Below, in pieces: positions 2,245-56,451 of a DNA stretch of 64,000 nt. The stretch is taken from NCBI GenBank assembly GCA_937920475.1, contig CALEUX010000015.1, forward strand, positions 1 to 64,000, given 5' to 3'. Both the position numbers and the translations under genes were made by a program. This stretch comes from an uncultured Marinilabiliaceae bacterium. GTDB lineage: Bacteria; Bacteroidota; Bacteroidia; Bacteroidales; Marinilabiliaceae. The notes beneath the pieces are model-generated. The model did not search any database. It was not told the DNA's origin and saw only the letters and a list, made by a program, of their open reading frames with translations. Every line of letters begins with the position of its first letter. Within the stretch, counting starts at the first letter, position 1.

Positions 2245-2690
2245 CCAAATTAACACATACTACTGATTTACTGAACACTATCAAATAATTCGAGCAATTC
2301 AGTAAAAAGCAAACTACTGCATGCTGAGACCTAAGCTTATCTACCTGTTTTAATGCCACTTAAGCATCTAAACAGTAAAAAAAACAAACTCACCATGTGT
2401 ATCGAGGCTGAAATTTTGTTAGTTAATTTTATTTAAATATATCAAACAATAAACAAGGGAAGCAATTTTATTATATATTTACATATCTGAACATTAGGTT
2501 TACCTCTTAACTAAAAAAGCAAACCGGGTAACCCTTAAAAATGTAACAATATTTTAAATTGATTTTGGAAATATTTGTTTTTCGTTTTAGTTCCAATTAT
2601 TTTTGTCTCCTATGTTTAATTTAACATTTACAAAGAAAAATATCTTTGAGTATTAACAAACCAATACAAATCAAAAATTTAGAACAGATT

Positions 2691-3491
2691 ATGAAAAAGC
2701 TATTTGCGTTTTTGGCAGTTTTTGGGATGCTTACTTTTGGTGCATCAGCCACTTTTGCTCAGCAAGACGAAGCGACCGCTGAAACTAAAACCGAGCAGGT
2801 TACAGAAAAAGCTCCAGCCGTTGAGCAGGTTGCAACAGCTGATGGAGCCGAAGAAGTTGGAATTCACAAGCAGATTAAATCAAAATTCATCGAAGGTGGA
2901 GCAGTTTTCATGAGCTTCGTATTACTTGCTTTGATTTTCGGTTTAGCACTCTGTATTGAAAGAATTATTTATTTAAACCTGGCTTCTACCAATACAAAAA
3001 AATTACTTCAGAACATTGAAAACGCTCTTCAGGACGGTGGCGTTGAGGCAGCTAAAGAGGTTTGCCGCAATACCCGTGGCCCTGTTGCTTCAATCTTCTA
3101 TCAGGGATTGGATCGTTTCGACGAAGGTTTGGATGTAGTTGAGAAATCAGTTGTATCTTACGGATCAGTTCAAATGGGTCTTCTGGAAAAAGGTCTTACA
3201 TGGATCTCTCTTTTCATCGCCGTTGCCCCTATGCTTGGTTTCATGGGTACAGTAATTGGTATGATTGACGCCTTCGACAGCATTCAGGCTATGGGTGATA
3301 TCTCTGCTTCAGCTGTGGCAGGTGGTATTAAAGTAGCTTTGATTACAACAGTATCTGGTTTGATCGTTGCCATCATTCTTCAGGTGTTCTACAACTATAT
3401 CGTTTCTAAAATTGACGGTATTGTTAACACCATGGAAGATGCTTCTATCTCTCTGCTGGATATTCTTGTAAAGTATAACTTGAAAAAATAA
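2691..3491 (+). CDS. exbB: MotA/TolQ/ExbB proton channel family protein with signal peptide
   Basis: Three TM segments, APMLGFMGTVIGMIDAF motif; N-terminal signal peptide then acidic segment; ATG at 2691 preferred over 2646. Confidence 0.9.
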   Translation: MKKLFAFLAVFGMLTFGASATFAQQDEATAETKTEQVTEKAPAVEQVATADGAEEVGIHKQIKSKFIEGGAVFMSFVLLALIFGLALCIERIIYLNLASTNTKKLLQNIENALQDGGVEAAKEVCRNTRGPVASIFYQGLDRFDEGLDVVEKSVVSYGSVQMGLLEKGLTWISLFIAVAPMLGFMGTVIGMIDAFDSIQAMGDISASAVAGGIKVALITTVSGLIVAIILQVFYNYIVSKIDGIVNTMEDASISLLDILVKYNLKK

Positions 3492-3499
3492 GACCAATC

Positions 3500-3946
3500 A
3501 TGACCAAACTAAATAGCATTTTAAACATTGTATTATATGCCCTGCTGGCTATTACACTGTTTTTTGCCGGTTTGTTCTATTTTGGCGGTGATGTAGCTGG
3601 TCAGGTTTACTATACCCCCACCTACACCGAGCCTTTTCTGAACTGGGGAAAAGCACTTGTTATTGCCACTGCAGTTATTGCAATCCTTTTTGAAATTGTG
3701 TTTCTTATACTGCGTCCTAAAAACGCTGTTCGTACATTGATTTCAATTGTTGGACTTATTGTAGTAGTTGCCATAGCCTACTCGTTGGGCGATGGAACAC
3801 CTTTAAACCTTGTTGGTTACGAGGGAAAAGATAATGTGCCAAGCATGTTGCTCATGTCGGATACATTCCTGTATACCATGTACTTTTTATTTGGTATTGC
3901 AATATTGTCTATTGCATACAGTGAAATTTCAAGGTTGTTCCGATAA
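3500..3946 (+). CDS. Conserved integral membrane protein of the ExbB/ExbD cluster, unknown function
   Basis: Four predicted hydrophobic segments; lies between exbB and exbD in the same orientation. Confidence 0.75.
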   Translation: MTKLNSILNIVLYALLAITLFFAGLFYFGGDVAGQVYYTPTYTEPFLNWGKALVIATAVIAILFEIVFLILRPKNAVRTLISIVGLIVVVAIAYSLGDGTPLNLVGYEGKDNVPSMLLMSDTFLYTMYFLFGIAILSIAYSEISRLFR

Positions 3947-3992
3947 TTAACAGGATTGGGATTTAAGTCTCATCCTAAAAAATAAATTTTCT

Positions 3993-4577
3993 ATGGCAAA
4001 AAGAGATATACAGGAAGTAAACGCAGGGTCGATGGCCGACATCGCCTTTCTGCTGCTTATTTTCTTCCTTATGACTACCACCATGGATACGGATAAGGGC
4101 TTATCGAGGATGTTACCTCCTCCAATTACAGAAGAGCCTAAAGATCAACCTCCCGTAAAAGAACGTAACGTTTTTGAGGTATTGATTAACTCCCGTAACC
4201 TGCTGCTTGTTGAAAACCAGTACATGGATTTGAGAGATTTGAAAGAAGCTACCAAAGAGTTTCTTCAAAACCCGATGAACTTGTCAACACTTCCTGAAAT
4301 TGAAATGATGGAAGTACCTTATTTCAATGTTTATCCGGTTACCAAAAATGCAGTTATTTCGTTGCAAACCGACAGAGGTACCCAGTACCAGATGTACCTG
4401 AATGTTCAGAACGAACTTCAGGCTGCCATCACTGAATTGCGTAACGAAATATCCATGAAACAATTCAACAAGCGATACGACGATTTGGACAAGGACCAAC
4501 AGGAAGCTGTTCGTATGATTTATCCGCAAAGGATTTCTGAGGCAGAACCACGTAGCGTAGGTGCTAGAAAACCATAA
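3993..4577 (+). CDS. exbD: Biopolymer transporter ExbD/TolR family
   Basis: VNAGSMADIAFLLLIFFLMTTTMDTDKGL ExbD N-terminal motif. Confidence 0.9.
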   Translation: MAKRDIQEVNAGSMADIAFLLLIFFLMTTTMDTDKGLSRMLPPPITEEPKDQPPVKERNVFEVLINSRNLLLVENQYMDLRDLKEATKEFLQNPMNLSTLPEIEMMEVPYFNVYPVTKNAVISLQTDRGTQYQMYLNVQNELQAAITELRNEISMKQFNKRYDDLDKDQQEAVRMIYPQRISEAEPRSVGARKP

Positions 4578-4592
4578 AGAAAGAGAAACAAA

Positions 4593-5069
4593 ATGGCAAA
4601 GTTTAGAAAAAAGAAAAGCGGCGGACAACAGGCTATTAATACCGCCTCCCTTCCTGACATTGTTTTTATGCTTCTGTTTTTCTTTATGGTTACCACAACC
4701 ATGAAAGAAGTTAGTTTGAAAGTTCTTAACAGGGCTCCCGAAGCCACCGAACTCACCAAACTTGAAAGGAAGTCGCTTGTTACCTATATTTATGTAGGCG
4801 TTCCTTTGAAACAATATCAGGGAAGATATGGTACCAATCCTCGCATTCAGCTCAATGATGCGTTTGCAACTGTGGATGATATCCAAAGCTACATTGTTCA
4901 GGAGCGGGAATCCATGAAAGAACAAGACCGTCCGTTAATGACTGTTTCTATTAAAGCTGACCATGAAAGTCCCATGGGCGATATCACAGATATCAAACAA
5001 GCTTTAAGAAAAGCTCAGGCATTAAGGATTAACTATTCGGCCCGCCAGGTTGAAAAACTCAAATACTAG
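4593..5069 (+). CDS. exbD: Biopolymer transporter ExbD/TolR family (second copy)
   Basis: NTASLPDIVFMLLFFFMVTTTM motif; 15 nt after the first ExbD. Confidence 0.9.
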   Translation: MAKFRKKKSGGQQAINTASLPDIVFMLLFFFMVTTTMKEVSLKVLNRAPEATELTKLERKSLVTYIYVGVPLKQYQGRYGTNPRIQLNDAFATVDDIQSYIVQERESMKEQDRPLMTVSIKADHESPMGDITDIKQALRKAQALRINYSARQVEKLKY

Positions 5070-5223: not shown

Positions 5224-8196
5224 ATGCTCGATAAATTAACGCAGATACCCCAGGAGTTTTTGGTTGAAACCGCATTCGACCTGTTAATGCAGAAACGCAT
5301 TCATAAAGTTTTGCTCATTTGCAGTTCGTATGATGCTTTTATGCTGGAAGAGGACGGACGAATTGATGAGCAGATTTTTAACGAATATGTTTCGCTGAAC
5401 CTGCGCCACCCGCCCCAGTTTATTCAGGTTTCGTCTGCCGAGGAGGCTTTTGAGGTTTTAAAAACAACAAATATCGATTTGGTTATTACCATGCTGAGCG
5501 TTGGTGGCATGGATCCGTTTTCTCTCTCGAAAAAAATTAAGCATAACTACTCACAAATTCCAATTGTTGTTTTAACACCCTTTTCGCGCGAAGTTACGGT
5601 CAAACTCAGTCATGAGGATACCAGTGCCATCGATTATGTTTTTTGCTGGCTGGGAAATACCGATTTGCTGCTGGCCATTATTAAACTAATTGAGGACCGG
5701 ATGAATGCCCCTCATGATGTAAACGAAGTAGGCGTTCAGTGTATTATATTAGTTGAAGACTCGGTACGCTTTTATTCGAGCTATCTTCCCATTATTTACA
5801 AAATAGTTTTTAAGCAATCGCGCAAATTTATGACTGAGGGCCTCAATGCCCATCAACAGATGATGCGTATGCGCGGACGCCCAAAAATACTGTTGGCCCG
5901 AAACTACGAGGAAGCGCTGGAACTCTATACAACCTATCAGAACAATACACTGGGTATCATTTCCGATGTTTCATTCAAACAACATGGGAAAAAAGACTCA
6001 CAGGCGGGCATTGCATTAGCCAAAAAAGTTAAGGAGGATAATCCATACTTGCCGTTTTTATTGCAATCGTCGAACAGCCAAATGATTGCCATCGCCAAAG
6101 AGTTACGGGTTGGATTTATTCATAAACACTCCAAACTCCTGCTTCAGGAGCTAAAAGATTTTATCAATAATTATCTCGCTTTTGGCGATTTTGTATTTGT
6201 AAACCCTGAAACTGGCGAAGAGGTTGCCCGTGTTAGCGACCTAAAAGAACTCCAGGAGAAACTTTTATCCATCCCCAACGAATCGCTGAAATACCACTTC
6301 TCGCGCGACCATGTTTCAAAATGGCTAACAGCAAGGGCACTTTTCCCCATTGCCAATGTGGTTAAAGAGTTTAAGGTTGACGATAATACCGATATTGATA
6401 AGGCCAAAGTTCACCTACACCAGATGATTGGTATTTTCAGAATGAGCAAAGGACGTGGAGTAATTGCAACCTTTGAACGTGAGCGGTACGACGACTATGT
6501 TACGTTTTCAAGAATTGGCGAGGGCTCGGTAGGGGGAAAAGCCCGGGGCCTGGCATTTTTAAGTACGCTCATAAAAAAATATCCTGTATTTAAAAGTTTT
6601 CCGGATGTGGTCATAACCATTCCGCGAACGGTAGTGTTAGGCGTGGATATTTTTGAAGCATTTATGGAGAACAACAATCTCTATCCTATTGCCCTTTCTG
6701 ATGCTTCTGATGAGGATATTTTAAACGCTTTTGCTGCTGCCCGTTTACCCGGTCATCTGAAAAAAGACCTGAAGCGGTTTACCGCCGTGGTTCAAAGGCC
6801 TGTAGCTATACGCTCGTCGAGCTTACTGGAAGACAGTCATCATCAGCCTTTTGCAGGTATATACTCAACCTACATGATTCCGAGGGCTGAGGATGACGAA
6901 ACCATGGCCGATGAAATTGGAATGGCTATAAAATGTGTATATGCATCGGTTTATTATAAATCGAGTAAAGCGTACATGACCAGCACCATGAACCTGATTG
7001 ATGAAGAAAGGATGGGCATTGTGCTCCAGGAAATAGTGGGGCAACCGCACGAAAACCGCTATTACCCAACTTTTTCGGGCGTAGGCCGCTCGGTTAACTT
7101 CTACCCCATTCCGCCCGAAAAATCGGAAGAAGGCGTGGTTAATGTAGCCCTTGGGCTTGGCAAACACATTGTGGAAGGAGGAACGTCGTTAAGATTCTCC
7201 CCGGTTTATCCCCAAAAAGTAATTCAACTATCTTCTCCGGAAATGATAGTGAGGGAAACCCAGAAAGATTTTTACGCCCTCGATTTAAACGCAGGAAGAT
7301 TTGAACCCACTGTTGACGACTCCATAAACCTGATACGCCCCGACCTTAGAGATGCCTTGAAAGATGGCTCATTGCGTTGGATTGGTTCGCTGTTCGATTT
7401 TCAGAACCAGATGATTCGCGATGGCGTAATGGGTGGCGATGGTTATCCACTCGTAACTTTTGCCAACATACTGAAATATGATGTTTTCCCATTGGCCGAA
7501 ATCATGAAATCAGTTCTGGAAATTGGTCAGCTTGAAATGAACCAGCCGGTGGAAGTTGAATTTGCTGTTGATATGCAAACCCCGGCCAATATGCCCTCTA
7601 TTTTTTATCTTTTGCAAATACGGCCCATTGTTGATAGCCGCACATCACTCGGACCCAGTGTTGAAATTACCGACGATGAGCATTCTTTTATCTACTCAGA
7701 ATCGGCGCTTGGTAACGGAATTATTAATGATATTGCTGATATTGTTTATGTTAAAACCCAGGATTACAGGCCTGGCTTGAATGCTGACATAGCCCGTGAA
7801 GTGGAGAAAATGAACGATATGCTTCAAAAGCAAGTTCGTCCATATCTTTTAATTGGCCCGGGGCGATGGGGTTCGCAAGACCCATGGCTGGGCGTGCCTG
7901 TTCGCTGGGGGCAGATTTGCGGTGCACGCGCCATTGTGGAAATGGGATTGGAAAATTACAATGTGGAACCCAGCCAGGGCACACATTTTTTTCAGAATCT
8001 TACATCGTTGCGTGTTGCCTACATATCGGTAAATACCCACTTGAATCAGGGGAAATTGGATATGGAATGGTTAGACCGGCAAACGGCCATCAATGAAACA
8101 GAAAAAATCAGGCACGTGCGTCTCTCGTCAGGGTTGTCGGTCAGTATTGACGGGCGACATGGTAAATGCAAGATTAACTACCCTGAGAAACAATGA
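5224..8196 (+). CDS. PEP/pyruvate-binding (PPDK N-terminal-like) domain protein with two N-terminal receiver-like domains
   Basis: GEGSVGGKARGLAFLSTL, VAIRSSSLLEDSHHQPFAGIYSTY, FYLLQIRPI match PPDK_N blocks; N-terminus has receiver-like folds (ILVEDSVRF); no GGxTSHAAI phosphohistidine motif. Confidence 0.8.
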   Translation: MLDKLTQIPQEFLVETAFDLLMQKRIHKVLLICSSYDAFMLEEDGRIDEQIFNEYVSLNLRHPPQFIQVSSAEEAFEVLKTTNIDLVITMLSVGGMDPFSLSKKIKHNYSQIPIVVLTPFSREVTVKLSHEDTSAIDYVFCWLGNTDLLLAIIKLIEDRMNAPHDVNEVGVQCIILVEDSVRFYSSYLPIIYKIVFKQSRKFMTEGLNAHQQMMRMRGRPKILLARNYEEALELYTTYQNNTLGIISDVSFKQHGKKDSQAGIALAKKVKEDNPYLPFLLQSSNSQMIAIAKELRVGFIHKHSKLLLQELKDFINNYLAFGDFVFVNPETGEEVARVSDLKELQEKLLSIPNESLKYHFSRDHVSKWLTARALFPIANVVKEFKVDDNTDIDKAKVHLHQMIGIFRMSKGRGVIATFERERYDDYVTFSRIGEGSVGGKARGLAFLSTLIKKYPVFKSFPDVVITIPRTVVLGVDIFEAFMENNNLYPIALSDASDEDILNAFAAARLPGHLKKDLKRFTAVVQRPVAIRSSSLLEDSHHQPFAGIYSTYMIPRAEDDETMADEIGMAIKCVYASVYYKSSKAYMTSTMNLIDEERMGIVLQEIVGQPHENRYYPTFSGVGRSVNFYPIPPEKSEEGVVNVALGLGKHIVEGGTSLRFSPVYPQKVIQLSSPEMIVRETQKDFYALDLNAGRFEPTVDDSINLIRPDLRDALKDGSLRWIGSLFDFQNQMIRDGVMGGDGYPLVTFANILKYDVFPLAEIMKSVLEIGQLEMNQPVEVEFAVDMQTPANMPSIFYLLQIRPIVDSRTSLGPSVEITDDEHSFIYSESALGNGIINDIADIVYVKTQDYRPGLNADIAREVEKMNDMLQKQVRPYLLIGPGRWGSQDPWLGVPVRWGQICGARAIVEMGLENYNVEPSQGTHFFQNLTSLRVAYISVNTHLNQGKLDMEWLDRQTAINETEKIRHVRLSSGLSVSIDGRHGKCKINYPEKQ

Positions 8197-8244
8197 AGAA
8201 ATAAAAGATTAGTACAAAGGTTGCAGGCAGAAACTCTTTAATAG

Positions 8245-8399
8245 ATGAGGCTGTCTAAAAAGTTATCAAACTTAATCTTTTTTCTTTGTGCTCCTTTGCG
8301 TGTACTTTGTTTACTTTGTGGTTCAATTATCTAAGTTTTACCACAAAGAACTCAAAGGTTATCACAAAGTCGCACTAAGCACTTTTTAGACAGCCTCAT
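8245..8399. mobile_element. MITE-like element, 155 bp, perfect 19-bp terminal inverted repeats
   Basis: atgaggctgtctaaaaagt at 8245-8263 and its exact reverse complement at 8381-8399; interior also partly palindromic (ctttgtggt...accacaaag); no ORF. Confidence 0.75.
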
Positions 8400-8412
8400 T
8401 GAAGATCAATTA

Positions 8413-9069
8413 CTACAGCCCTATAAACCTGTAGCCCAAGGTAAACATTAAAGCATTGCTTTTACGCTCAAGCTCTGTTTTGGAAACATCGTTTAAACCC
8501 CACTCGTATCGTACATCCAGATTGAGTTTCCACACCTCAACACCAGCGCCCAATTGGAAATTCCAGTTGGTGCTTCTAAGTTTATCATTATTTAAATCGT
8601 TGTTCAGGCTTGAGAACCTCGACTTGTCGTTCACTTTAAAGGACGCCACAGGGCCAGCGACACCATACAGATTGAATATTTTCAGATCGACTACCTTTAA
8701 GTGGGCTAAAATTGGCAAGTCCCAGCTATAATACGACACCTTTTCGGATACAGCCACATCGGTGCTGCCCGATTTAAGATAAAAATCGGTTACACCACTT
8801 TTCTTGGTAAAATAAAACTCGGGCTGCAGCGAAAGGTTTCCTATCAACCCAATTCTCGAATAAGCGCCAATGAGATAACCGCTTCTAAAATCGTCGCGTG
8901 CTTTGGAAAAATTATACCCTTCCAGGCCGGAAAGTATGCTGGATCCATTGTCGGTATTGAAACTGGTGGAATTATACCCCAACTTTAACCCAAGCTGAAA
9001 ATGACTCTGGGCATTGGTTGTTAAAGCAATACCGGAAATAATAAACAGAATTAAAATAAGCTTTTTCAT
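8413..9069 (-). CDS. Outer membrane beta-barrel protein (PorT-family-like)
   Basis: Signal peptide MKKLILILFIISGIALTTNAQ, FQLGLKLGYN, LQPEFYFTKK, LGYRF ending. Confidence 0.8.
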   Translation of the reverse strand: MKKLILILFIISGIALTTNAQSHFQLGLKLGYNSTSFNTDNGSSILSGLEGYNFSKARDDFRSGYLIGAYSRIGLIGNLSLQPEFYFTKKSGVTDFYLKSGSTDVAVSEKVSYYSWDLPILAHLKVVDLKIFNLYGVAGPVASFKVNDKSRFSSLNNDLNNDKLRSTNWNFQLGAGVEVWKLNLDVRYEWGLNDVSKTELERKSNALMFTLGYRFIGL

Positions 9070-9317
9070 ACCTTGCATATTAGATTATACCGGACAAAAT
9101 CCGCATGATGAATTTTCAACCGTGTTTGTGTTAAACGAATCATGCTCGTATCAGTTCAACATAAATTTATAAATCGTTAGTATTCTTGCCAAATATCGTA
9201 CCAAACAAAACTACATAAATTTTCCATTAACGGAGACCTAATAACGACCAATGATTTGGTTGGTTGGCCGTAAATAGTGAACTTTACTAGGTGTCAAAAA
9301 AACAGGTTCCTGCAAAA

Positions 9318-11669
9318 ATGGATTATTTTCTTAAACTGCTATTTATAAGTCTCATCTTTACTTTCGAACATCATTTCTCCTTAGGGCAGGAACCGGTTAA
9401 AACATTTGTTATAAGCGGCTTCGTAAAAGATATAACAACCGGAGAAATGTTACCTGGGGCTTCCATTCAATCGGTTGAAGCCGGACTTGGAACCATTGCC
9501 AATAATTATGGTTTTTATTCGTTGGCACTACCAGAGGGCAAACATACACTAGTTTGCGGCTATCTGGGATTTCAGCAATACTCGCTGGTTCTCGAATCTA
9601 ATAAAAACATGCGTATTAACCCTGAACTTACGCCGCAATCGCATAATTTATCGGAAATAGAAATCATTGGCCTTTCCAAAGAAGAACAACGTCGTTTGCC
9701 TGTTATGGGTTTGGAAAAGCTGGAAGCCTCAGAATTGAGAAAATTACCGGTGCTGTTTGGTGAAACCGACCCGCTTAAAACCATTCAGCTTCTTCCGGGC
9801 ATAACCTCGACCAGTGAAGGCTCTTCCAATATTTCGGTACGAGGTGGGAATCCCGACCAGAATTTGTTGCAGTTTGATGAGGCTGTAGTTTACAACGGTG
9901 GACATTTATTGGGCTTTTTCTCAGTTTTTAATAACGATGCTATAAAAGAAGTTCAAGTTTACAAAGGTGACTTACCGGCCTGGACTGGTGGGAGACTGGC
10001 TTCGCTCATCGACATCAGAAGCCGCGATGGAAACATGCACGATTTGTCAGGCGTTGCTGGTATTGGTATTATTTCGAGCAGAGTAACATTGGAAGGCCCT
10101 GTAAAGAAAGGCAGCTCCTCATTCCTCATAAGTGGCCGACGTACTTATCTGGACATGTTTCTGCCCCTGTCAACCGACAGAGATATTCGCGACAACCGGC
10201 TTTACTTTTACGATACCAATTTAAAACTCAACTACATTATTAACGAAAACAACAGGGTTTTTATAAGCGGATATTTTGGAAGAGATGTTTTGAAAAATGA
10301 GATGATTGGTCTTGGGTTTGGCAACAGTACCTTCACCTTGCGATGGAATCACTTATTTTCGCACAAACTATTTAGCAATGCCACATTGGTTTATAGCCGC
10401 TACAATTATTCACTTGGCAGCACAGGTGATGCATTTGAACCCATCAACTGGAATTCCAGACTCAATGATTGGTCATTCAAATATGCTTTTTCCTATTATC
10501 CTAAAGCTGGCGATTTGATTGAGTTTGGCATTCATTCCATTTTTCATTCCATTAAACCAGGCAATATTTCATCGTCAGACGACAACCCAACCATTAAAAA
10601 TATTAAAATAAAAGTTGCCAACTCATTGGAACATGCAGCCTATATCAGCCACACAAAAAGCCTGAATGACTTTTTTACCATCAGATATGGAATGCGACTT
10701 TCAATTTTCCAGAATATAGGCGAAGGCCGAACCTTTAAGTTTGATGAGAATTTCGAACCTGTAGATACAATCGACTATGCACGAGGCTCTATTTTTAATC
10801 AATACACAGGATTGGAGCCTCGCCTTGGATTTTCGTGGCTAATATCGCCCTTCCTAACCATGAAAGGCAGCTACTCCAACACCCGGCAATACCTTCACCT
10901 GGCAAGCAATTCAAATTCAGCAACCCCATTGGACATATGGTTTGTTTCATCGCCAAACATTAAACCTCAGATTTCAAATCAGTTTTCATTGGGTTTCAGT
11001 CTTTCAGAATCAAAAAAAATATGGGAGCATTCCATTGAGTTTTATTGGAAAAAAAATAAAAATGCCATCGATTTCAGGGAGCATCCCGATTTGATACTGA
11101 ATGAAGCTCTGGAAGGAGAAATCAGAACCGGCACTGCCACTTCAAAAGGAATTGAATGGCTTACCAAATACGAGCAGTCGAATTTCAGTGGATGGGTGGC
11201 TTATACTTTGTCGCGTTCGGAGCGCCAAAGTAAATGGATAAACAACGGAGAGAAATATTTATCGCCTTACGACCATACGCACGATTTATCAATTGTGGCC
11301 AATTATACCATAAACCCAAGAATGACCATAACCGGCAACTGGGTGTATTTTACCGGATCACCAGTTACCTTACCGGTAGGACGTTTTGATTTTCAGGGAG
11401 GTGTTATACCAGTTTATTCGAAAAGAAATGCAGAACGTTTGCCCGATTACCACCGAATGGATGTATCGTTTACACTTCAGGGGAAAAATCCGCCATCCAG
11501 AGCATGGAAAGGCGAGTGGAACTTTTCTGTTTACAATCTTTACGGCCGTAAAAATGCATGGATGATTGGTTTCACAAGCGACGATGATGTTGACCCGTAC
11601 TTAAAAAAAGCCGAAAAAACATATTTATTTTCAATAGTACCATCGGTAAGTTACGTTATAAGGTTTTAA
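9318..11669 (+). CDS. TonB-dependent receptor with carboxypeptidase-regulatory-like N-terminal domain
   Basis: ISGFVKDITTGEMLPGASIQ, plug motifs KTIQLLPGITSTSEGSSNISVRGGNPDQNLLQFDEAVVYN; beta-barrel ending; ATG at 9318 preferred over GTG 9291. Confidence 0.9.
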   Translation: MDYFLKLLFISLIFTFEHHFSLGQEPVKTFVISGFVKDITTGEMLPGASIQSVEAGLGTIANNYGFYSLALPEGKHTLVCGYLGFQQYSLVLESNKNMRINPELTPQSHNLSEIEIIGLSKEEQRRLPVMGLEKLEASELRKLPVLFGETDPLKTIQLLPGITSTSEGSSNISVRGGNPDQNLLQFDEAVVYNGGHLLGFFSVFNNDAIKEVQVYKGDLPAWTGGRLASLIDIRSRDGNMHDLSGVAGIGIISSRVTLEGPVKKGSSSFLISGRRTYLDMFLPLSTDRDIRDNRLYFYDTNLKLNYIINENNRVFISGYFGRDVLKNEMIGLGFGNSTFTLRWNHLFSHKLFSNATLVYSRYNYSLGSTGDAFEPINWNSRLNDWSFKYAFSYYPKAGDLIEFGIHSIFHSIKPGNISSSDDNPTIKNIKIKVANSLEHAAYISHTKSLNDFFTIRYGMRLSIFQNIGEGRTFKFDENFEPVDTIDYARGSIFNQYTGLEPRLGFSWLISPFLTMKGSYSNTRQYLHLASNSNSATPLDIWFVSSPNIKPQISNQFSLGFSLSESKKIWEHSIEFYWKKNKNAIDFREHPDLILNEALEGEIRTGTATSKGIEWLTKYEQSNFSGWVAYTLSRSERQSKWINNGEKYLSPYDHTHDLSIVANYTINPRMTITGNWVYFTGSPVTLPVGRFDFQGGVIPVYSKRNAERLPDYHRMDVSFTLQGKNPPSRAWKGEWNFSVYNLYGRKNAWMIGFTSDDDVDPYLKKAEKTYLFSIVPSVSYVIRF

Positions 11670-52465: not shown

Positions 52466-54418
52466 TTATTCATTAACAACCAACTGTTTATTTAGCGTTT
52501 CAGCTGTTTTAATCAAGCGTATCATTTCAGCTTTAAAACCATCTTCATCTTTACCCCGGGCGTTTCTGGCCATTTCCTGAACAAACGAATAAGATAAATC
52601 TCCTTTAAATTCCGAGTTTCGCAACAACATTCCAAAACCTGCAACCGATGCAGCAAATCTGAAATTATCGGTGGCTTCATTAAAGGTCTTAACCTTACCA
52701 TTAACAGGAGTTTCTATTAAAGAACTCTGTTCGCCATCGGGTTGTTTATATCTGAGTTTAAGAGTTAGCCACTCATCAGATGCCGACGCATTTGACTGAA
52801 TTGGTTTTTGATATTTCAATGGGTCAATTTGCTTAACCCAGGTTGCAGCATCAGAAGCACCCACCGGAATAATTTCGTATAAAGCAGTAACCGTATGTCC
52901 AGCACCAATTTCCCCGGCATCTTTCTTATCATTATTAAAATCTTCGGCATTCAACATTCTGTTTTCATAACCTATTAACCTGTATGCCAAAACCTTTGAT
53001 GGATTGAATTCAATTTGAAACTTCACATCTTTAGCTATGGTAAACAACGTACCTCCAAACTCCTGAACAAGTGTTTTTTGAGCCTCCTGAAGATTATCAA
53101 TATAAGCGTAATTGCCATTTCCTTTATTGGCAATCAACTCCAGACGGTCGTCCTTGTAATTACCCATTCCAAACCCGAGTACGGTAATAAAAATGCCCTT
53201 GTCGCGCTTGTCGGTTACCAAACGCTCCATCTCGGCATTGGAACTAACGCCCACATTGAAATCGCCATCGGTGGCCAAAATAATACGGTTGTTGCCACCC
53301 TTAATAAAACTCTCTTCAGCTTTTTGATAGGCTAATTTTAGCCCGGCTCCACCGGCAGTTGAACCGCCTGCCTGTAAACGGTTAAGTGCATCGAGTATGG
53401 TCTGCTTCTGATTGCCCGGGGTTGGCTCTAAAACACAACCCGAAGCACCGGCATACACCACAATAGAAACCTTATCCTGCGGACGCAATTCTTCCACCAG
53501 TAAATGAAAGGCCGATTTTAATAAAGGTAATCGGTTAGCAGGACTCATGGATCCTGATACATCAATTAAAAAAACAAGATTGGATGGCGGTAAATTGTCT
53601 TTAGGAATATCTCTGCCCTTCAATCCTATTTTCATTAAATAATGTTCCTTGTTCCAGGGACAAGCCGCCATTTCGTGGTGAACTGCAAAAGGATGATTAT
53701 TTGTAGGGCCATTATATTCGTAATTAAAGTAGTTAATCATCTCTTCAATACGCACGGCATCAACCGGGGGCAGTTGCCCTGAATTTAAAAAACGGCGTAC
53801 GTTCGAATAAGCAGCCCGGTCAACATCCACCGAAAAAGTTGACAAGGGGTCTTTGGCAACCTCTTTATATCCATTTTCGTGAATGGTGGCATAGTTCTCA
53901 GTGTTGTAGTCCATATCGGCAACAATAAAAAGATTAACAGGATAACTGGTCATCTCGTTGCTAACCTTTTGCTTGGATTGTCCGCGTACTCTAATGCCCG
54001 GAGCAACATGCTGAGTGGCATAGCCTGTTACTACAACAACCTCCTCTAAATTAACAGCATCATTCTCTAAAACAACATCAATACGGGTGCTGCTTTTTAT
54101 CTCAACAGTCTGTGGAGCCATGCCAATAAAGCTAAATACCAAAAATTTATCGGTCGGCTTTACCTCAATTTTATAATAGCCATTGATGTTGGTGATAACC
54201 CCGCGGTTAGTGCCTTTAACAACCACAGTGACACCTGCAATGGGTTGTTTGACGCTATCTGTAACCACACCTTTAATAAATCTATCAGTGGTCAGTGTAA
54301 ACGCAAGGGTAGTAAATAATAGAGTCAGGCTGAAAAAAACAACCATGATTTTAAATGAATCCTGGATAGATAAAAAATCTACCAAATTCTGTTTGATGTT
54401 AAAAGTTATTCGTTCCAT
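52466..54418 (-). CDS. vWA domain (YfbK/DUF3520-like) protein with N-terminal carboxypeptidase-regulatory-like domain and SusC-like motif
   Basis: IKGVVTDSVKQPIAGVTVVVKGTNRGVITNINGYYKI; LEEVVVVTGYATQ; YSNVRRFLNSGQLPPVDAVRIEEMINYFNY; VFLIDVSGSMSPANRL. Confidence 0.88.
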   Translation of the reverse strand: MERITFNIKQNLVDFLSIQDSFKIMVVFFSLTLLFTTLAFTLTTDRFIKGVVTDSVKQPIAGVTVVVKGTNRGVITNINGYYKIEVKPTDKFLVFSFIGMAPQTVEIKSSTRIDVVLENDAVNLEEVVVVTGYATQHVAPGIRVRGQSKQKVSNEMTSYPVNLFIVADMDYNTENYATIHENGYKEVAKDPLSTFSVDVDRAAYSNVRRFLNSGQLPPVDAVRIEEMINYFNYEYNGPTNNHPFAVHHEMAACPWNKEHYLMKIGLKGRDIPKDNLPPSNLVFLIDVSGSMSPANRLPLLKSAFHLLVEELRPQDKVSIVVYAGASGCVLEPTPGNQKQTILDALNRLQAGGSTAGGAGLKLAYQKAEESFIKGGNNRIILATDGDFNVGVSSNAEMERLVTDKRDKGIFITVLGFGMGNYKDDRLELIANKGNGNYAYIDNLQEAQKTLVQEFGGTLFTIAKDVKFQIEFNPSKVLAYRLIGYENRMLNAEDFNNDKKDAGEIGAGHTVTALYEIIPVGASDAATWVKQIDPLKYQKPIQSNASASDEWLTLKLRYKQPDGEQSSLIETPVNGKVKTFNEATDNFRFAASVAGFGMLLRNSEFKGDLSYSFVQEMARNARGKDEDGFKAEMIRLIKTAETLNKQLVVNE

Positions 54419-54521: not shown

Positions 54522-55109
54522 ATGCCATTGCGTTTATTACCCCGAAAACCACTTTCTGATGATGAACTTCTGGAGAAATTCAGGAAGGATGGTGATATGG
54601 ATTGGCTTGGGCAATTGTACAAGCGGTACATGCATTTGGTATATGGCGTGGCGCTAAAATATTTGAAAGACCGCGACCGGGCGCAGGATTGTGTCATGGA
54701 AATATTTGAGAAACTGGTAAAAGAATTACCTGGTAAAGAAATTAGCAGCTTTAAACCCTGGTTACACGTTGTTACCAAGAATTATTGCCTGATGGCGCTG
54801 CGCCACGATAAATCAGTTCAAAACCGTGAAGCCGTGTATAAAAATAATCAGGTTTTATTTGTGGAAAATGATTACGACTGGCATCCTTTTGATAGTAACG
54901 GGCACGATGATTTGGAGGCGAAGCTGAAAGGTTGCCTAGAAAAATTAAAAGCTCAACAAAAATCATGTATTGAACAATTCTACCTTGAAAAAAGATGTTA
55001 TAAAGAAATTAGCGAATCACTAAATTTAGATATAAAAAAAGTGAAAAGCTTTATTCAGAACGGAAAGCGCAATTTAAAAATATGCCTTGAAGCAACATAT
55101 GAAGGATAA
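54522..55109 (+). CDS. ECF-type RNA polymerase sigma factor
   Basis: LGQLYKRYMHLVYGVALKYLKDRDRAQDCVMEIFEKL region 2; C-terminal sigma-4-like helix QQKSCIEQFYLEKRCYKEISESLNLDIKKVKSFIQNGKRNLK. Confidence 0.88.
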   Translation: MPLRLLPRKPLSDDELLEKFRKDGDMDWLGQLYKRYMHLVYGVALKYLKDRDRAQDCVMEIFEKLVKELPGKEISSFKPWLHVVTKNYCLMALRHDKSVQNREAVYKNNQVLFVENDYDWHPFDSNGHDDLEAKLKGCLEKLKAQQKSCIEQFYLEKRCYKEISESLNLDIKKVKSFIQNGKRNLKICLEATYEG

Positions 55110-56451
55110 TCGCAAAATAAAGGGAAAACCCATTGGTTTAAAAGCCTTCATTGCATATCTGGAAGGAAGGCTTTCGGGAAGCGAACGGCACCAGTTTGAA
55201 CATTCTGTTATGTCGGACCCTTTTGAAGCCGATGCTTACGATGGTTTTTTACAACTTTCGGCCAATGAGCTCAGGCAGGATATGGATGCTTTAAACAGGC
55301 AACTTGATAGCAAAAAAAACAATAAAAAACTTTGGTTATGGATTGGGGCTGCCGCATCGGTTGCCATTGTGGCAGGACTGTTTTCTCTGTTGTTTTTAAT
55401 TATCCCCCACTCGCCTAACGAACAAATGGCAATATTAAAGCCATCGGACGACACGTTATTTGTTAAGGAAGCTATAAAACCTGAAATGGCCAGACAAAAG
55501 GCAATAGATTCTTTACCTGCAAAACCATCTTTAGCTGCTCCCCCTAAGCCCGTTGTTACAGATATTATTATAGTAGATGACAATTTTGTAACCGACAGTG
55601 ATTTGGATTATGAGCCTTCCGCCCCACTGGCAATCGTTTCATCTGAAGAAGAACTCAACACCGAAGATTCTACCCCCAAAAAAGTCCCGGTTATTTCAGG
55701 TAATGCTATGAATTTGGCTGAGATGCCCGAACGTTCAAGCAATATCCGAATAAGAGGCATTTCGTCGAGAACTAATACTCCCCCTCAGGATACCTCAGGT
55801 GAGAAAATACTTCAGGGAAAAGTAAGTGGTGTAAAAATCACTATGGATAAAATGGATACAGGGGCTTTAATTGTAAAAGGCTACGTCATGGATGATAACC
55901 GCCATCCTTTACCTGGTGCCAGTATTGTGCATAATAAATCGAAAAAAGCAACCATAACTAACATTAATGGTTATTTTGAGATAGCCATACCAACCGATGA
56001 GAAAGAAAATGATAAATTGACAGCATCTTTTATTGGTTTCGATAATTTTGAATTTGATGCCCGAAAGGATACTACTAAAATTATTCTTAATCCAAACCTG
56101 CTGGCTCTTGAAGAAGTGGTGGTAGTGGGCTATGGCGTTCAAAAGGAAGAGACCCAAAACTATGAATACATTCAGTCTAAACCTCGAATGGGGTATAGTG
56201 CCTATCGAAAAAAAGTATTAGAACAGATAAAATCGCTTAATCTGCCAGAGAACAGTGAAAATCGCCTGATAGTAAAAATCACCATTTCGTCATTTGGAGA
56301 GGTTGAACTGGTGGAGGTAATAAGGTCTCCATACGAACCGCTTAATGCCGAGATTATACGGATTATTCAACAGGCTGACCGATGGGAACCTGCCAGGAAA
56401 AACAATTCTCCCGTTAAAGAAACCCAACGATTATCTTACAGGATTAAATAA
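55099..56451 (+). CDS. Putative membrane anti-sigma factor with SusC-like plug motifs, carboxypeptidase-regulatory-like domain and TonB C-terminal-like tail
   Basis: One TM helix LWLWIGAAASVAIVAGLFSLLFLII; NIRIRGISSRTN; ILQGKVSGVKI; IVKGYVMDDNRHPLPGASIVHNKSKKATITNINGYFEI; LEEVVVVGYGVQK; TonB_C-like GEVELVEVIRSPYEPLNAEIIRIIQQADRWEPA; overlaps the sigma gene by 11 nt. Confidence 0.75.
   Translation: MKDNRKIKGKPIGLKAFIAYLEGRLSGSERHQFEHSVMSDPFEADAYDGFLQLSANELRQDMDALNRQLDSKKNNKKLWLWIGAAASVAIVAGLFSLLFLIIPHSPNEQMAILKPSDDTLFVKEAIKPEMARQKAIDSLPAKPSLAAPPKPVVTDIIIVDDNFVTDSDLDYEPSAPLAIVSSEEELNTEDSTPKKVPVISGNAMNLAEMPERSSNIRIRGISSRTNTPPQDTSGEKILQGKVSGVKITMDKMDTGALIVKGYVMDDNRHPLPGASIVHNKSKKATITNINGYFEIAIPTDEKENDKLTASFIGFDNFEFDARKDTTKIILNPNLLALEEVVVVGYGVQKEETQNYEYIQSKPRMGYSAYRKKVLEQIKSLNLPENSENRLIVKITISSFGEVELVEVIRSPYEPLNAEIIRIIQQADRWEPARKNNSPVKETQRLSYRIK

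Follow-up and report, generated by a model that had tools for sequence, protein, structure and literature searches.

Displaced pieces of a SusC-type plug in a probable membrane anti-sigma factor co-inherited with a YfbK-type protein in Bacteroidota

Why would a membrane protein encoded next to a sigma factor carry pieces of the plug of a SusC-type receptor? The question is raised by a locus in the window (the whole stretch of DNA that we analysed, 64,000 nucleotides from an uncultured Marinilabiliaceae bacterium), in which an ECF sigma factor gene is followed by a gene for an anti-sigma-like protein. A first-pass annotation of this protein claimed that three landmarks of the receptor plug lie after its transmembrane (TM) helix, in rearranged order. 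The sigma factor gene and the features of the protein (aa, amino acids) are:

54522..55109, + strand: ECF sigma factor gene (Sigma70_r2, 7.3e-12; Sigma70_r4_2, 9.8e-8; TIGR02937, 9.5e-22)
55099..56451, + strand: anti-sigma-like membrane protein, 450 aa, with a degenerate ZAS-type N-domain, one TM helix, a disordered periplasmic linker, an N-terminal extension (NTE) of the SusC type, a TonB box and a TonB C-terminal domain
55135..55263, + strand: anti-sigma N-domain, aa 13-55, a relative of zf-HC2 in which the zinc ligands are replaced (from the alignment with orthologues)
55330..55401, + strand: TM helix LWLWIGAAASVAIVAGLFSLLFLI, aa 78-101 (from the sequence; the model has a helix at 55-101)
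55735..55767, + strand: plug-like piece 1, SSNIRIRGISS, aa 213-223 (plug-model positions 45-63; pLDDT <50)
55810..55839, + strand: plug-like piece 2, LQGKVSGVKI, aa 238-247 (plug-model positions 26-49; pLDDT <50)
55873..56124, + strand: SusC-type NTE (PF13715, or CarboxypepD_reg), aa 259-342 (6.7e-14)
56107..56136, + strand: TonB box LEEVVVVGYG, aa 337-346 (spanned by a TIGR04056 match at aa 259-353)
56194..56442, + strand: TonB C-terminal domain, aa 366-448 (Pfam match at aa 389-447; PF03544, 5.2e-6; PDB TonB matches; pLDDT mostly >90)

The anti-sigma-like gene probably starts at the ATG at 55099, not at the TTG at 55087, and the 3' end of the co-directional sigma factor gene overlaps this start. 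Although Pfam finds no zf-HC2 domain (PF13490) in the target protein, its N-domain aligns with those of orthologues that retain the zf-HC2 (ZAS) zinc finger, with the zinc ligands replaced in the target. In one orthologue (L091), zf-HC2 scores above the cut-off (27.6 vs. 22.2 bits), which supports the anti-sigma identity. The protein is probably the membrane anti-sigma factor of a sigma/anti-sigma/YfbK cassette; that it inhibits the sigma factor is something that we infer.

The CarboxypepD_reg domain and the TonB-C-like tail that were first proposed are both confirmed by Pfam (PF13715 and PF03544). Furthermore, Foldseek searches with the structural model gave two SusC NTEs as the top matches (9hfj and 6ytc) and TonB C-terminal domains as weaker ones (6i97_D). 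A Pfam search of the target found no STN domain; the NTE is present instead. At 450 amino acids, and with the TonB domain at its end, the protein lacks the 22-strand C-terminal barrel. Given its TonB_C domain, it might be an ordinary energised transducer of the TonB family that has a sigma factor gene beside it by happenstance. We consider this very improbable: the N-domain is related to zf-HC2 and the adjacency to the sigma factor gene is conserved. The TM helix of TonB has an S-x3-H motif for ExbB/ExbD, and aa 78-101 of the target contain no histidine, so this motif is missing. (About 50 kb from the cassette, the window also contains, by eye, an ExbB/TolQ-like gene and two ExbD-like genes, at 2646-5069 on the + strand.)

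The three motifs lie at the coordinates at which they were first reported, but they are not all of one kind. In the SusC protein Bt1763, the TonB box was identified by mutation as DEVVV, and it follows the NTE (PMC7782687), so EEVVVVGYG is the TonB box rather than a landmark of the plug. Because an NTE followed by a TonB box is the usual order in SusC, the claim of a rearranged order stands only for the other two pieces. These lie upstream of the NTE, out of their SusC position, and they are also inverted relative to SusC, as plug-model positions 45-63 come before positions 26-49. (Another gene in the window, at 9291-11669 on the + strand, encodes a TonB-dependent-receptor-like protein that has an NTE and no canonical EEVVVVGYG.)

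The two displaced pieces are indeed plug-like. Using a hidden Markov model (HMM) of the plug that we built from 37 SusC receptors, with the TonB box left out, LQGKVSG scored 8.9 bits, which none of 2000 shuffles equalled. IRIRG scored 5.8 bits, or 4.6 bits with its half of the linker alone (7 of 2000 shuffles). When the linker was shuffled 200,000 times, the exact motif of the IRIRG piece arose once and that of the LQGKV piece never did.

However, the pieces do not rebuild a plug, a point that the first-pass annotation had proposed to check by structure prediction. The Pfam Plug family (PF07715) had no match in the target up to E = 1. AlphaFold models the NTE and the TonB domain with confidence and leaves residues 152-253 and 341-352 with pLDDT below 50; these ranges take in the two plug pieces and the greater part of the TonB box. 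This predicted disorder speaks against a plug that is reassembled in the isolated protein. It is still compatible with a role in binding, as the isolated NTE, in a structure solved by NMR, has a flexible Ton box (PMC7782687).

We also considered whether the pieces had been copied recently from a SusC gene of the same genome. The best codon-level match for IRIRG has 18 of 30 identical bases and the best match of LQGKV to SusC genes has 19 of 27, and neither piece has a significant DNA match in the target's own genome. Since their DNA has diverged from the genome's SusC copies, we rejected a recent insertion.

Displaced plug-like pieces are found in other homologues as well. Among 48 orthologues (the target excluded), the linker before the NTE scores above 4 bits on the plug HMM in 5 cases and above 8 bits in 3, where 0.44 and 0.03 cases were expected. 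Of 31 further linkers, taken from named genomes, 5 were above 6 bits (0.11 expected). Regular expressions gave a similar picture, with 5 IRG-type matches in the orthologues' linkers vs. 0.018 expected and 5 LxGxVxG-type matches vs. 0.013 expected. As a natural-sequence control, we scored 1148 segments of ordinary genes from the same loci. Nine of these exceeded 4 bits, and removing three that are plug-type by sequence (from L269, L244, and the Flavobacterium locus L294) left 6 of 1145. In comparison, 11 of 80 linkers exceeded 4 bits with the target included (p = 4e-10; as the orthologues are not mutually independent, the p-values for the linkers overstate the case). Short motifs in a disordered, low-complexity linker are just where a chance resemblance might be suspected, but both the shuffles and the natural segments disfavour it, and we regard chance as extremely improbable.

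The orthologues differ in what they carry. Most of them have no plug pieces, and both the position and the choice of piece vary among those that do; some anti-sigma homologues even lack the NTE. One orthologue carries IRIRGVASQPAKESPLLIIDGIPV before its NTE, and the linker of L227 (Mangrovibacterium) contains IRIRGISSLP. In L065, SSKNIRIRGVASQPAKESPLLIIDGIPVD lies immediately before the NTE and scores 29.5 bits, with a Pfam Plug match there that is below threshold. In the anti-sigma factor of L234 (Mucilaginibacter), the NTE is preceded by a TonB box and TQKRETVTGSV and followed by another stretch that resembles a TonB box. This layout suggests that SusC-like front ends were duplicated or fused to give the displaced order. 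Thus, the pieces are disordered and their position is not conserved, yet they recur far more often than chance allows.

This variability would be expected if the pieces were evolutionary debris. In that case, the front-end pieces would derive from a fusion or duplication of SusC or YfbK, the pieces in the linker would be decaying, and only the NTE and the TonB domain would work; the remnants would be tolerated because the linker is disordered. The location of the pieces in a linker with pLDDT below 50, their absence from most orthologues, and the differences in which piece is kept all fit this explanation. On the other hand, the motifs in the target protein are close to canonical despite the divergence of their DNA from the genome's SusC copies, and such pieces recur in distant lineages, spanning several families (Mangrovibacterium, Pontibacter, Mucilaginibacter, Pedobacter, and Roseivirga).

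The other neighbour of the sigma factor gene, which is transcribed divergently, bears on both the origin and the possible role of the pieces:

52466..54418, - strand: YfbK-type vWA protein, with an NTE at aa 48-129 (PF12034, or YfbK_C, 4.8e-76; PF12450, 3.2e-42; VWA, 7.4e-19; PF13715, 5.2e-19)
54017..54049, - strand: TonB box LEEVVVVTGYA of the YfbK protein, aa 124-134 (from the sequence)
53975..53998, - strand: plug-like piece GIRVRGQS of the YfbK protein, aa 141-148, ordered as in SusC (4.4 bits; shuffle p = 0.006)

In this protein, the plug remnant (in context, APGIRVRGQS) and the TonB box fall within residues 122-178, which have pLDDT below 50 in the model. Many YfbK proteins have an NTE, then a TonB box, and then SusC-like sequence in the SusC order, and 24 of 63 of their linkers score above 4 bits on the plug HMM (0.43 expected). 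The YfbK protein of L297 reads LDEVVVVGYG...LLQGKVAGVNV...ILIRGVSPI, with a Plug match above the Pfam cut-off. In L288 (Aureisphaera galaxeae, NZ_JAQQTF010000006.1, locus 6001-8648), a whole Plug domain (73 bits) lies between the NTE and the vWA domain, and judging from these domains, this YfbK protein is a SusC front end without the barrel. Because the NTE, the TonB box, and the plug remnants are in SusC order, YfbK resembles a SusC front end in which vWA replaces the barrel. Across the YfbK proteins, the plugs form a series from complete domains to traces, which is a further point in favour of debris. Weighing this series along with the evidence from the anti-sigma factors, we think it unlikely, though a serious contender, that the target's plug pieces are debris.

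Several other proteins with receptor-like parts turned up near YfbK genes or in related loci. In two Chitinophagaceae loci, small plug-like genes lie directly 3' of the YfbK gene (L269:8092-9135 and L244:4333-5289, both on the + strand; 67 and 46 bits on the plug HMM), and both have a cysteine at the IRxRCG position. In a Flavobacterium metagenome-assembled genome, a TM protein downstream of the sigma factor gene (L294:4552-5568, + strand) has neither an NTE nor TonB_C; its C-terminus resembles the second half of the plug (PLYIIDGKEY...GEKGKNGVIIVTTKNG), without a Pfam Plug match. A membrane protein of the M56/BlaR1 type, identified by eye (L067:595-2526, + strand), combines an NTE with a TonB-box-like stretch and a pair of TonB C-terminal-like domains, and from this make-up it is apparently another regulator-like protein with receptor pieces. 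In genus g6 (G006-G019, including Carboxylicivirga sp.), most anti-sigma factors have a decayed TonB box (LSEVITIE...), and most of their YfbK partners retain theirs.

The three genes form a conserved cassette. A YfbK/vWA gene, in most cases divergent, accompanies the genes for the ECF sigma factor and the anti-sigma-like protein in 17 of 20 loci that we examined. In the window's family, the anti-sigma and YfbK genes are both present in 27 cases, the anti-sigma gene alone in 2, the YfbK gene alone in none, and neither in 42 (p = 1.4e-17). We also collected 80 named loci by a contig search with a YfbK query (the same search with the anti-sigma protein gave no matches). A sigma factor gene was present in 51 of the 69 loci whose YfbK bears an NTE, vs. 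0 of the 11 without one (p = 3e-6). The cassette, its domain make-up, and the non-chance nature of the plug pieces are well supported, and gene linkage and co-inheritance support the proposed functional pairing of the anti-sigma factor with YfbK. We do not use two other comparisons as support: matching the IRG pieces of the anti-sigma factor to those of YfbK within each genome gave no significant result (8 of 120 permutations), and the similarity of their NTEs within genomes (p = 0.0006) is confounded by phylogeny.

Another potential explanation is that the protein is a decoy for the housekeeping TonB-ExbBD system. TonB would be baited by the TonB box and the plug pieces, and occupancy would report on idle receptors. 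The intact TonB box after the NTE, as in SusC (PMC7782687), is a point in favour of this. But the target has a TonB-type domain of its own, the TonB box is mostly degenerate in one genus, and the tight linkage to YfbK would be left unexplained. The adjacent YfbK carries the same elements, and a pairing with it accounts for the evidence better than a free decoy does; we judge the decoy improbable.

Since YfbK carries the same pieces, and carries them in receptor order, the anti-sigma factor and YfbK probably form one little-studied envelope-signalling module of the Bacteroidota. Tentatively, and with a little less confidence than an even chance would warrant, we favour an anti-sigma factor whose periplasmic part mimics a SusC front end and which is paired with YfbK. 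The periplasmic part would copy the NTE, the TonB box, and pieces of the plug, followed by the TonB-type C-terminal domain. This domain and the NTE may bind YfbK by strand addition at its TonB box/NTE region, on the model of TonB binding to receptors and of FecR-type anti-sigma factors binding the receptor's STN domain. The anti-sigma factor's own TonB box and plug-like pieces might act as internal competitors, which would take over once YfbK is engaged elsewhere; this could alter the exposure of the linker to proteolysis and so release the sigma factor. We infer each of these steps, from the anti-sigma activity and the pairing through strand addition to signalling by release. The plug pieces themselves could be extra contacts, competitor elements, or debris, and our data do not separate these.

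A broader proposal, which we think plausible but somewhat less likely than not, is that this is an undescribed envelope-signalling system of Bacteroidota, in which YfbK, as a SusC derivative without a barrel, would be read by a receptor-mimicking anti-sigma factor with a TonB-type domain and the plug motifs would be binding or switching elements. (A search of the open-access literature found no description of the cassette, which does not prove that it is undescribed.) Deleting the NTE from Bt1763 abolishes growth on levan (PMC7782687). Here, the NTE, the TonB box, and plug remnants are found on a co-inherited anti-sigma factor and vWA protein. If the pairing is true, then the cassette is a small barrel-free system for the binding of NTEs and TonB boxes, apart from transport, and the principle of the receptor-like anti-sigma factor reaches from STN domains to the NTE. 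The cassette also offers a testable function for the YfbK proteins of Bacteroidota.

The closest known systems are FecR, PupR, and FoxR, in which, as in the cassette, an ECF sigma factor gene lies beside a gene for a single-TM anti-sigma factor with a periplasmic domain of the receptor N-terminal type (PMC7186176, PMC11637429). In FecR-type anti-sigma factors such as PupR, this is an STN domain that is homologous to the STN-type signalling domain of the receptor, and the anti-sigma factor and the receptor bind to one another (PMC7186176, PMC11637429). In contrast, the domain in the target is an NTE (PF13715), accompanied by a TonB box, pieces of the plug, and a TonB C-terminal domain, and instead of a barrel receptor, a YfbK/vWA protein is linked to it. 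SusC/RagA receptors (TIGR04056) share with the target the NTE followed by a TonB box and the LQGKVxGV and IRIRGxSS sequences, but the target has no signal-peptide start, folded plug, or barrel, and its plug pieces precede the NTE in inverted order. From the TonB family (PF03544), which shares its C-terminal domain, the target differs by its ZAS-like N-domain and its TM helix without histidine. Finally, the neighbour is a clear member of the YfbK family (PF12034, PF12450); the Bacteroidota form adds an NTE, a TonB box, a plug or its remnant, and the link to the sigma and anti-sigma factors, whereas YfbK without an NTE is unlinked in 11 loci.
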